64,000 nt of DNA from Tepidisphaeraceae bacterium. Its GTDB lineage: Bacteria > Planctomycetota > Phycisphaerae > Tepidisphaerales > Tepidisphaeraceae. The stretch's first letter is position 1; every line of letters begins with the position of its first letter. Shown piece after piece: positions 37,964-42,000 of this stretch. The stretch spans positions 62,001 through 126,000 of the forward strand of contig DASYHQ010000017.1 in NCBI GenBank assembly GCA_035998445.1, read 5' to 3'. A program made the position numbers and the translations under genes. The notes under the pieces are model-generated. The model ran no database searches. It saw only the letters and a program-made list of their open reading frames with translations, and had not been told where the DNA came from.

Positions 37964-38815
37964 TCACCTTCCACTCGACCGCCGGCGGAACTCGGCCGGC
38001 GAGACGCCGACGATCTGCTTGAATCGCTTGGAAAAGTGAAACGCGTCGCAAAAGCCGCAACGCTCGGCCACCGTGGCCAGCGTGAGGCGCGGGTCGACTA
38101 ACATGTTGGCGGCTGCGTCGATCGCGCGGGTGGTGCGGTAGCGGCTGGGCGTCATGCCCGACAGTTTGGCAAACCGCTTGCGAAAGGTGTCGAACGGCAT
38201 CCCCAACTGCCGCGAGACGGTGTTGAGCGACGCCGGGCTGTCCAGCGGTATCGCGTCGATCAATCCCTTGGCCGCCGACAACCACGCCTGCCCCCCTTCC
38301 CCTTGCCGTGATGCCGTCGCGATGTCTGCGAGCAACTGCTGCATGCGGCACAGCGATTCCAACCCCGCCGCCAGATCGCCACCGGTCGGCTCACCGGCCG
38401 CGGTGATGAAGCGGCGCAGCCAATATTCGACCGGTTCGAGGTGAACGATCGGCCCCTCGGCGCCAATCAATCCCGCGGCCCGCCACGCATCGAACACGGG
38501 GCCGTCGAAGACGACGTAGAACTCCTCCCACGTCCCATCCGCCGGCGGGCCATACGTGTGCGCCACCTCTGGGTACACGAAGATCAGATCCCCCGCCCGC
38601 ACGGGAATGCGGGGCCCGTTGGCCTCGCTGTAGTACCCCTGCCCCGCCAGCAGGTAAACGACCGCGTATTTGCCGAAAATCCGCATGCCCATACCACTGC
38701 CCCCCGGCATATGGCGGACAAACCCGGCGCTGTTTACGCCACCTGCCGCGGGAATCGCCGCATTCTGGCAGATAAGCCGGCTCGAATGATCACTGGAATC
38801 AATGGCGACATGCAT
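37964..38815 (-). CDS. AraC-family transcriptional regulator with cupin sensor domain
   Basis: A 283-residue regulator. The N-terminal cupin/AraC-binding region is at about 20-120 (RIPVRAGDLIFVYPEVAHTY). The C-terminal double helix-turn-helix is at about 190-283 (LNTVSRQLGMPFDTFRKRF and LTLATVAERCGFCDAFHFS, KRFKQIVGVSPAEFRR). It is divergent from the PhyH gene, with a 95-base gap that holds a perfect inverted repeat, so it probably controls that operon. The start at MHVAIDSS leaves the operator outside the gene. A start 20 codons upstream (MPCKIRL) would overlap it, and neither has a clear Shine-Dalgarno sequence. Confidence 0.88.
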   Translation of the reverse strand: MHVAIDSSDHSSRLICQNAAIPAAGGVNSAGFVRHMPGGSGMGMRIFGKYAVVYLLAGQGYYSEANGPRIPVRAGDLIFVYPEVAHTYGPPADGTWEEFYVVFDGPVFDAWRAAGLIGAEGPIVHLEPVEYWLRRFITAAGEPTGGDLAAGLESLCRMQQLLADIATASRQGEGGQAWLSAAKGLIDAIPLDSPASLNTVSRQLGMPFDTFRKRFAKLSGMTPSRYRTTRAIDAAANMLVDPRLTLATVAERCGFCDAFHFSKRFKQIVGVSPAEFRRRSSGR

Positions 38816-38829
38816 GCCAAAATATACAT

Positions 38830-38884
38830 GCACTGAACCAATCAGGCCATTCCGTAACCGGATTTTACATGGCATGTTCAGTGC
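38830..38884. promoter_or_regulatory. inverted-repeat operator candidate between araC-type and PhyH genes
   Basis: GCACTGAAC (38830-38838) and GTTCAGTGC (38876-38884) are perfect 9-base reverse complements with 37 bases between. This spacing fits AraC-type dimers bridging two sites, or two monomer sites flanking the divergent promoters. The PhyH start lies 27 bases beyond. Confidence 0.55.
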
Positions 38885-38910
38885 GTAGTCACTCGAACAA
38901 GGGAAACGCA

Positions 38911-39843
38911 ATGTCCGCTTCAACCATGACGCTGCCACGACTGACGATGATGGGCGAGGAGATCGAGGCCGTTGAAAACCTCGACGATTGCACGCCTCTG
39001 CTGAACGACCCCGACGCCTTGCGCCAGCAGATGGCGACGAACGGGTACGTCTACCTCCCCGGCTACCTCGGTCGCGATCGCGTGAAGGCGGCCCGGCGCG
39101 TGTTTATCGATGAACTGCAGCGCCGTGGCATGTTGCATCCCGACCGCGACCCGATGGACGGCTTTTACAACCCCGCCGCTGGCGCGCCCGGCTTTGCCGG
39201 TGGCCGGTTGGAGACGTTGTTCCCCGATCCACAGCCGATTCACGACGCGCTCTACACCGGCCCGATGATGGCCTTCTTCCGCACGCTCTTCGGTGACGGC
39301 ATCGACGTACGCCACTACGACTACACCTGGACGCGCCAGGTGAACCCCGGCCCAGCCACGCCGCTCCACTCCGACGTCGTCTACATGGGCCGTGGCACGC
39401 ATGAGCTGTACACCGCTTGGACGCCGATGGGCGACAACAGCTTCGACCTTGGCGGTTTGATCCTGCTTGAGGGGTCGAATAACCACGCCGGTCTGGCCAA
39501 GTCGTACTGGCGGTCGGACGTCGACTCCTTCTGCAGCAACAAAGCCGACAAACGCGACGGTTGGGCCAAGGCCAACGGTATGGGCGGCAGCCTGCGCGGT
39601 TCCGCCAACCAGATCCGCCGCAGCTTGGGCGGCAAGCGTTGGGTGACGGCCGACTATCGCATGGGCGACGTGGTGCTCTTCAGCGTCTACACCGTACACG
39701 GCGGCACCGACAACCGCAGCGACCGCCTCCGCCTCTCGACCGACACCCGCTATCAGCGCGCCGACCAGCCCGCTGACGAACGCTGGATCGGTGAACAGCC
39801 CGCGGCCCACGGCCCCAACGCCAAACGCGGCCTGATCTGCTGA
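38911..39843 (+). CDS. phytanoyl-CoA dioxygenase (PhyH) family protein
   Basis: A 310-residue Fe(II)/2-oxoglutarate dioxygenase of the PhyH group. The iron-binding facial triad is readable as H153-x-D155 (PLHSDVVYM) with H263 (TVHGGTDN), and Arg272/Arg274 (DRLRLSTDTR) can bind 2-oxoglutarate. GDGIDVRHYDYTWTR and DLGGLILLEGSNNHAG are family phrases. It hydroxylates an unknown substrate; with the GMC dehydrogenase it may form an oxidation pathway. AAGGGAAACGCA precedes the ATG. It is the first gene of a three-gene + operon divergent from the AraC-type regulator. Confidence 0.9.
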   Translation: MSASTMTLPRLTMMGEEIEAVENLDDCTPLLNDPDALRQQMATNGYVYLPGYLGRDRVKAARRVFIDELQRRGMLHPDRDPMDGFYNPAAGAPGFAGGRLETLFPDPQPIHDALYTGPMMAFFRTLFGDGIDVRHYDYTWTRQVNPGPATPLHSDVVYMGRGTHELYTAWTPMGDNSFDLGGLILLEGSNNHAGLAKSYWRSDVDSFCSNKADKRDGWAKANGMGGSLRGSANQIRRSLGGKRWVTADYRMGDVVLFSVYTVHGGTDNRSDRLRLSTDTRYQRADQPADERWIGEQPAAHGPNAKRGLIC

Positions 39844-39916
39844 TGAGGCCTGGCGTTCACCCGCACACCGGTCTTGCCGCTTCAGCGGTAAGGTTTACCA
39901 TTTGCGGGTGAACCCC

Positions 39917-40375
39917 ATGCTCAATCCCCAACAGCTATCCACCTTGCTTGCGGCGATGGACCGCGTCATTCCATCGGATGAGTTCCCATCCGCCTCCCAA
40001 GCGGGCGGGATGACCTTCATCGATCGGCTGTTCCGCACCGACCTCGCGCACCGCACCCCTGAACTGGCTGCGCTGCTCGATCAGATCGATGCCGCGGCTA
40101 AATCGCAGCACGATCGCAGCTTCGCCGACCTCGCCGAAGCGCAACAGGACGCCGCGCTAACCGCGGTCGAAGATTCACCGTCGCGCAAGGCATTCGCGTG
40201 GCTGGTGGACATCATCAACGAAGGCTACTACGCCGACCCCGCCAACGGTGGCAACGCCGATGCGGTATCCTGGAAAATGATCGGCTACGCGCCGCGCGTG
40301 CCGGGCTACGACGGTTCGCAGCAGGTGCTGGGCGACACCGCTCATCCGCGATCATTAGGGGAGAGCGCACGATGA
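39917..40375 (+). CDS. gluconate 2-dehydrogenase subunit 3-like protein
   Basis: A 152-residue protein whose LAAMDRVIPSDEFPSASQAG start and C-terminal KMIGYAPRVPGYDGSQ are typical of the gluconate_2-dh3 family. These small subunits partner GMC-type dehydrogenases and often carry a Tat-type signal, but no twin-arginine signal is visible here. Its stop overlaps the GMC start by 4 bases, which fits a complex. A GTG 3 codons upstream is an alternative start. Confidence 0.85.
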   Translation: MLNPQQLSTLLAAMDRVIPSDEFPSASQAGGMTFIDRLFRTDLAHRTPELAALLDQIDAAAKSQHDRSFADLAEAQQDAALTAVEDSPSRKAFAWLVDIINEGYYADPANGGNADAVSWKMIGYAPRVPGYDGSQQVLGDTAHPRSLGESAR

Positions 40376-42000
40376 GCGAGTACGACACGATCGTAATTGG
40401 CGCCGGTGGTGCCGGCGGCATCGTCGCCGGGCGATTGGCCGAGATGGGCAGGACCGTCCTCCTGCTGGAACGCGGCCAGCAGATGGCCGTCGGTGATGTA
40501 TCTCGCGACCACCTGCGCAACCACCGGCTGCCCGTGTACGGTCACAACACCGGCCCCGACTTGGACCGCAACCCGCGCGTGCTGATCGACGCCCACGGCC
40601 AGCGCCACGAGCTGCGCCCGCACCAAGGGGACTATCACAACAACGCCATGGTGGTGGGTGGCGGCACGCTCGTGTACGGCGCGCAGTCGTGGCGTTTCAT
40701 GCCGCAGGACTTCCGCATGGCCAGCCTGTACGGCGTGCCGGAGGGGTCGTCGCTGGCGGATTGGCCGATCACGTACGACGACCTCGAGCCTTACTACACG
40801 CAGGCCGAGTGGGAACTGGGCGTGGGTGGCGACGGCGACGCGATGGTCCGCCACGGCCCGCGTTCCAAGCCGTTTCCCCTGCCGCCCCATGACGAGACGC
40901 TTCAGCGGCGCGTGCTGCGCCGGGGTGCTGAAAAGCTCGGGCTGGCGACGCAACCCGTGCCGCTGCTCATCAACTTCCAACCGTACAACGGCCGCGGCGC
41001 GTGCGTGCGCTGCGGCATGTGCGTGGGCTTCTCCTGCCCCACCGATGCCAAGACCGGCTCGCAGAACACCCTGCTGCCGCGCGGGCTGGCCACCGGGCGG
41101 CTGACGCTGCTGACCGGCGCGCAGGTCGAGCGCATCGAAACCGACGCCCACGGCCGCGCCACCGGTGTGTGGTACTTTCGCGACGGTCGCCGAACGTTTG
41201 CCGGCGCCAAGGTGATCGTTAGCAGCGCCGGCGCGATCGAGTCGGCCCGCCTGCTGCTCAACAGCGCCGCCGACCACGCCCCGCGCGGCCTGGGCAACCA
41301 CTCCGACCACGTCGGCCGACATTTGCAGGGACACTACTACCCCGGCGCGCACGCTTTGTTCGACGAGATCACCCACGACGGCATCGGCCCGGGTCCGGCG
41401 ATCGCCACTTGCAACTACAACCACGGCAACAAGGGCATCGTGGGCGGCGGCATGCTGGCCAACGAGTTCATCAAGCTGCCCGTGATTTTTAACAAGTGGA
41501 GCTGGCCACCGGGCGTGCCGCGCTGGGGCCTGACCGCCAAGCAATTCATGCGCGACGCCTACCGGCGGACGGTTCACGTGCAGGGCCCGGTGCAGGAGAT
41601 CCCGCACCCCGACGGCCGGGTGACGCTCGACCCACAGGTGCGCGACGCCGTCGGCATGCCCGTCGTGCGCCTCTCCGGCACCACGCATCCCGAAACGGTG
41701 CGCACGTCGCAGTTCATGCGCCAGCGCGCCGTCGACTGGCTGACCGCCAGCGGCGCCAAGCAGGTCTGGAGCGCGTCGCCCGGCCTCAGGCTCGGCGGTG
41801 GCCAGCACCAGTCGGGCACCTGCCGCATGAGCGACGACCCGGCCCACGGCGTCACCGACCGCTACGGTAAGGTCCACGGCACCGACAACGTCTACGTCTG
41901 CGACGGCAGCCTCCACGTCACCAACGGCGGCTTCAACCCGGTGCTGACGCTTATGGCGTTAGCGTTCCGCAATGCGGAGTGGATCGGGAAGCAGATGTAA
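40372..42000 (+). CDS. GMC family FAD-dependent oxidoreductase
   Basis: A 542-residue flavoprotein, the likely catalytic partner of the subunit-3-like protein. The ADP-binding motif is VIGAGGAGG (8-16). A four-Cys segment is C211-VR-C214-GM-C217-VGFS-C222, as in gluconate/fructose-type dehydrogenases. The GMC signature is HQSGTCRMSDDP, and the catalytic region HVTNGGFNPVLTL (H515, N518, N522) is near the C-terminus. The ATG overlaps the previous stop (ATGA). It probably oxidises an alcohol or polyol and passes electrons onward. The Cys segment may hold an Fe-S cluster; a cytochrome c subunit is not present. Confidence 0.9.
   Translation: MSEYDTIVIGAGGAGGIVAGRLAEMGRTVLLLERGQQMAVGDVSRDHLRNHRLPVYGHNTGPDLDRNPRVLIDAHGQRHELRPHQGDYHNNAMVVGGGTLVYGAQSWRFMPQDFRMASLYGVPEGSSLADWPITYDDLEPYYTQAEWELGVGGDGDAMVRHGPRSKPFPLPPHDETLQRRVLRRGAEKLGLATQPVPLLINFQPYNGRGACVRCGMCVGFSCPTDAKTGSQNTLLPRGLATGRLTLLTGAQVERIETDAHGRATGVWYFRDGRRTFAGAKVIVSSAGAIESARLLLNSAADHAPRGLGNHSDHVGRHLQGHYYPGAHALFDEITHDGIGPGPAIATCNYNHGNKGIVGGGMLANEFIKLPVIFNKWSWPPGVPRWGLTAKQFMRDAYRRTVHVQGPVQEIPHPDGRVTLDPQVRDAVGMPVVRLSGTTHPETVRTSQFMRQRAVDWLTASGAKQVWSASPGLRLGGGQHQSGTCRMSDDPAHGVTDRYGKVHGTDNVYVCDGSLHVTNGGFNPVLTLMALAFRNAEWIGKQM

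Follow-up and report, generated by a model that had tools for sequence, protein, structure and literature searches.

A conserved 21-bp direct repeat as the candidate operator of a divergent AraC/PhyH promoter in a Tepidisphaeraceae bacterium

The locus described here raises a simple question: which element of the short gap between an AraC-type regulator gene and a divergent PhyH-family gene could be recognized by the regulator? In the window, that is the whole 64-kb stretch of DNA that was analysed, the two genes start at 38815 on the minus strand and at 38911 on the plus strand, leaving a gap of 95 bp (38816-38910). The original prediction, made from this DNA alone, had recognized the divergent pair, which is borne out by the gene starts and the domain matches, and had proposed as operator a perfect 9-bp inverted repeat located in the gap. 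The features concerned are listed below.

37964-38815, minus strand: gene of an AraC-family regulator (P0001, 283 aa), with an N-terminal AraC_binding cupin and a C-terminal double HTH
38830-38838, plus strand: left arm of the inverted repeat, covering the 7-bp spacer of the direct repeat described below and extending one base into either half-site, over columns that are mostly unconserved
38876-38884, plus strand: right arm of the inverted repeat, overlapping the candidate PhyH -10 and the bases just after it
38911-39843, plus strand: PhyH-family Fe(II)/2-oxoglutarate dioxygenase-like gene (P0002, 310 aa)

The divergent genes and the inverted repeat between them

By its domain matches, P0001 is assigned to the AraC/XylS family, of which both domains are recognized. 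The C-terminal double HTH scores 69.5 bits against PF12833 (cut-off 33.6) and 60.3 against PF00165 (cut-off 26.6), the N-terminal cupin scores 48.2 bits against PF02311 (cut-off 21.1), and the protein matches the AraC DNA-binding domain 2k9s with an E of 5e-7. In P0002, residues H153, D155, H263, R272 and R274 are invariant in a 10-sequence alignment. These residues, which we take to be the HxD...H facial triad and the 2OG-binding Arg, are consistent with an active Fe(II)/2-oxoglutarate enzyme. The closest solved relatives of P0002 are SnoN/SnoK and 1-deoxypentalenic acid 11-beta hydroxylase (PDB 2rdn and related), with which it shares a PhyH-type fold by sequence profile (E 9e-17); its score of 50.7 against the NCBIfam equivalog of the latter, for a cut-off of 550, indicates that it is not the same enzyme.

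The inverted repeat had been described exactly: GCACTGAAC occupies 38830-38838 and its exact reverse complement 38876-38884, 46 bp apart centre to centre with 37 nt between the arms. This spacing had been presented as close to four or five helical turns, whereas at 10.5 bp per turn it amounts to 4.38. The 9-mer occurs twice in the window, and the 9-bp inverted pair with a loop of 20-50 nt is found once in the genome (5,844,885 bases, 5.84 Mb). Of 1000 dinucleotide shuffles of the gap, 8 contained a perfect inverted repeat of 9 bp or longer, as did 29 of the 673 95-bp tiles of the window. The window as a whole holds about 62 inverted repeats when arms must reach 9 bp and loops may span 3-60 nt. 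Judged for one intergenic region, the repeat is weakly above chance; it is unremarkable given the number of regions scanned for the prediction. Consensus scanning of 38700-39000 for promoters and terminators gave no match and no sigma-70 promoter, and an Rfam scan returned one tRNA and no match at the araC/PhyH gap.

A direct repeat shared by divergent AraC/PhyH promoters

Divergent pairs were collected by combining tblastn for AraC with PhyH searches that covered 101 relatives, 397 genomes of the class, 26 of the family and GTDB species contigs (80 loci kept of 158). The nearest PhyH relatives share about 50-56% identity, and none above 51%, the window's own apart, was found in the 26 family genomes searched. 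Twenty-two regions with AraC upstream of and divergent from PhyH were extracted, window included. The AraC protein is at least 34% identical in 19 of them (L048 and L059 having another gene between), and 25-28% identical in L053, L071 and L082.

The 21 other regions contain neither of the 9-mer arms, so the pair fails the conservation in orthologous promoters on which the original prediction had staked itself, and the inverted repeat was rejected as operator on this ground. What the divergent promoters share is another element of the same gap, CCAAAANNTACAWG-N7-CCARNNNNNCCAT, arranged head-to-tail and located at 38817-38853 in the window. Its CCA boxes stand 21 bp apart, that is two helical turns. 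The search for an operator in the 95-bp gap had therefore been directed to the right region and to the wrong element, a guess that is superseded by this conserved 37-bp site. Its parts, together with a candidate -10, are as follows.

38817-38830, plus strand: putative operator half-site 1, CCAAAATATACATG; distal to PhyH and one base from the araC start codon (38813-38815)
38838-38851, plus strand: putative operator half-site 2, CCAATCAGGCCATT; 21 bp downstream of half-site 1, abutting or overlapping the expected PhyH -35 region
38873-38878, plus strand: candidate PhyH -10, CATGTT; weak (3/6 consensus), at the place where relatives have TATAAT-like hexamers

Numbering from 0, columns 1 (C), 4 (A) and 11 (A) do not vary among the 18 aligned sites, five of which form one close group. 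In the spacer, six of the seven columns carry at most 0.60 bit and the seventh 0.77 bit; the left arm of the inverted repeat, which overlaps the direct repeat, coincides with these least conserved columns. As in AraC-type direct repeats, tandem half-sites about 21 bp apart are found here conserved beside related regulators.

A sequence-only profile, R1, was built from 14 of the 18 sites, with the window, L011, L050 and L058 omitted; the training sites were chosen by eye before the profile was tried on the left-out lineages. R1 has a single match in the window, at 38817-38853 (25.8 bits, E 7.3e-7), which is also the sole match reported in the genome at E<=10 (E 6.7e-5; 150 of the 481 first-look candidates scored). 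With a position weight matrix from which each region's own lineage was left out, the best forward site was unmatched by 1000 shuffles in 16 of the 22 regions. The window site scores 37.6, and the next of about 128,000 positions 10.1. In the remaining regions the site was equalled or exceeded by 1 (L053), 10 (L082), 28 (L035), 28 (L058), 32 (L071) and 175 (L050) of the 1000 shuffles. Visual inspection suggests that L050 and L058 have the shared repeat with its half-sites 22 bp apart, a form beyond the reach of an ungapped matrix. In the R1 search of other loci, L011, L050 and L058 were all missing from the matches at E<=10, so the profile misses divergent or 22-bp forms.

Association with the regulator clade and promoter geometry

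The motif follows a particular clade of AraC proteins. Among 24 AraC homologues of the class, about half of them loci of the set, the best site in front of the gene has a forward score exceeding the reverse one in 22 (L143 and L151 being the exceptions), and the site score broadly declines with AraC identity; the motif, in the same orientation, also fronts more distant members of the clade. When R1 was run at E<=0.05 on 150 genomes of the class, 11 matches were obtained in 10 genomes. Seven of these are AraC/PhyH gaps already in the set, and three are weak (E 0.027-0.045), with no AraC homologue found on the stretch examined. Another match, L126 (G024:C141), is flanked by an AraC with 40% identity and, divergently, by a non-PhyH gene whose translation, on reading, resembles a uroporphyrinogen-decarboxylase-type protein. 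Among 77 other loci, three more sites were found (L066, L090 and L117), with no AraC homologue found beside them. The genome of the window also encodes a paralogous AraC of about 40% identity (L146, G000:C39) with a weaker copy of the motif; there, another AraC-type ORF precedes on the same strand.

The HTH residues F211, R212, F215, D257 and R264 are invariant in all 19 motif-bearing regulators (those of the 18 sites plus L126), and S262 is kept in 18 of them. In the non-clade regulators of L053 and L082, D257, S262 and R264 are all replaced, and the regulator of L071 gave no HTH match. L035, which has no clear site, yet keeps D257, S262 and R264, argues against a simple residue rule.

The position of the repeat relative to the promoter is conserved as well. 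TATAAT-like hexamers were defined by at least 4/6 matches with A2 and T6, offsets being counted from the first base of the site. Of the 18 sites, among which five are close relatives, 14 have such a hexamer at offset 55-59, for an expectation of 1.34 from shuffles. Outside the training set, L066 and L090 have TATAAT at offset 56, and L117 has TACAAT at offset 46 and no TATAAT at 56. If a -35 hexamer is set 17 bp before such a -10, it comes to lie near offset 33-38, on the border of half-site 2. In class-II geometry, the promoter-proximal half-site lies at the -35, as at araI2. This arrangement, with a half-site at the -35 and a fixed distance to the -10, is seen across the relatives, while the hexamer of the window at that place agrees with the consensus at only 3/6 positions; its CATGTT is not among the 14 counted. 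A weak -10 is consistent with activator dependence, and it is also the weakest point of the argument.

On these grounds, the direct repeat is very probably the regulatory element of the gap. It is best read as a class-II AraC activator operator that would drive PhyH, most likely through a ligand-responsive AraC dimer, with araC itself probably repressed. The divergent AraC protein would occupy half-sites 38817-38830 and 38838-38851 as a dimer. Its subunits, one per half-site, would lie on the same side of the helix, and each would use its two HTH motifs to read the CCA box and the ACAT/CCAT box. With a ligand in the cupin domain, the subunit on half-site 2 would recruit RNA polymerase to the weak -10 near 38873-38878 and thereby switch PhyH on. 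The same binding may block araC transcription; this negative autoregulation is proposed because half-site 1 is one base from the araC start codon.

Other readings of the gap have to be weighed against this one. That the inverted repeat itself is the operator, through a dimer on arms 46 bp apart or two dimers held by a small loop, is very unlikely. Its arms are exact, unique in the genome and located in the correct gap, and AraC-family regulators with inverted half-sites do exist, such as RhaR (PMC3870299); the reading is countered by the lack of either arm in the 21 other gaps, by a left arm placed where the shared motif is least conserved, by a spacing away from whole helical turns and by an excess over chance that is weak. 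Slightly less improbable, though still unlikely, is a lineage-specific accessory, either a hairpin in the araC leader RNA or a second, weaker site added to the operator. Indeed, in the minus-strand RNA of 38826-38890 the two arms pair in a fold of -23.8 kcal/mol (z -3.64), and the PhyH relatives compared, about 50-56% identical at the nearest, leave room for a genus-specific role. Yet this stretch was picked for containing the repeat, a wider one of 85 nt gives a z of -1.82 with 10 of 200 shuffles as stable, the hairpin requires an araC transcript start upstream of 38884, and the relatives are without such a repeat. Most likely, then, the 9-bp pair of arms arose by chance and is incidental.

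It may also be asked whether something else, for instance a different regulator that binds there, keeps the 37-bp block conserved. The L066, L090 and L117 sites could speak for it, as no AraC homologue was found on the stretch examined. Such a cause is hardly to be expected, for the motif tracks the AraC clade even beside the non-PhyH gene of L126 and has no other reported match in the host genome. Moreover, in L003 and L004 the site is separated from the gene by a purine-rich stretch and the araC start, and the block is therefore not araC coding sequence there.

Known AraC systems, spread of the pairing and downstream genes

The proposed operator of the PhyH promoter can be compared with that of E. 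coli AraC at araI1-araI2 of pBAD, which is defined by a half-site consensus, a 21-bp spacing and an overlap with the -35. Both systems have two tandem half-sites, the second beside the -35, and a cupin plus double-HTH protein, in keeping with the 2k9s match. Unlike in E. coli, a distal looping site was not identified here, the half-site reads CCA-N6-ACAT and differs from the AraC consensus, and P0001 scores 47.3 against the NCBIfam AraC equivalog, whose cut-off is 208. The araI1/araI2 operators and activation are described in PMC4760080. A 21-bp direct-repeat motif has been published for several AraC-family regulators, and such operators are reported for rhamnose regulators predicted to be of AraC type in Bacillales, Bacteroides and Enterococcus (PMC3870299). 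These belong to another regulator group with another target, the target here being a PhyH dioxygenase, and the likeness noted is in the spacing. RhaR likewise uses two half-sites, in its case inverted, of 17 bp with a 17-bp spacer (PMC3870299), in contrast to the tandem sites conserved here. The open-licence PMC texts searched held nothing on this AraC/PhyH regulon.

The mechanism proposed is ordinary for a bacterial gene switch; of greater interest is how widely the regulator and the operator occur together, horizontal transfer being only putative. From the comparison of loci it is conceivable, if somewhat short of probable, that the AraC clade and its own operator (CCA-N6-ACAWG, 21-bp repeat) form a portable cassette across several phyla, mostly found with PhyH, with a swappable controlled gene and a one-target regulon. 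The phyla named are Planctomycetota, Verrucomicrobiota, Armatimonadota, Chloroflexota and others. The R1 profile provides a means of searching for the regulon of this uncharacterised AraC clade, and the link between regulator and PhyH dioxygenase across phyla narrows the hunt for inducer and substrate.

Downstream of PhyH lie two further genes, of which the GMC gene had been included in a PhyH-GMC operon.

39917-40375, plus strand: gluconate 2-dehydrogenase subunit 3-like gene, with ATG at 39917 and an upstream in-frame TTG at 39902; possibly co-transcribed
40372-42000, plus strand: GMC oxidoreductase gene, its ORF open further upstream and its start overlapping the end of the previous gene; possibly co-transcribed

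None of the four proteins (P0001, P0002, subunit 3 and GMC) reaches an NCBIfam cut-off. The genes do adjoin in the window. None of the 80 PhyH relatives kept from the GTDB scan (flanks up to 4 kb) was accompanied by a GMC or subunit-3 homologue, and in the window a strong hairpin lies between PhyH and the next gene; the PhyH-GMC operon is a proposal only. Three of the loci compared, titled Verrucomicrobia or Opitutae (L098, L101 and L103), carry two tandem PhyH homologues each. The hairpin, 3' of PhyH at 39848-39920, is a nested stem-loop with 18-nt arms that are 89% complementary, an MFE of -40.4 kcal/mol and a z of -5.67. Its inner part, CTTGCCGC-TTCA-GCGGTAAG, belongs to a dispersed family with part-matches at 21 other places of the genome (77-96% over 18-47 nt, E<=1, its own reverse strand excluded). 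The seven copies inspected have the same TTCA-loop fold, several of them followed by T-rich tracts, and this element is possibly a recurrent terminator or REP-like element.
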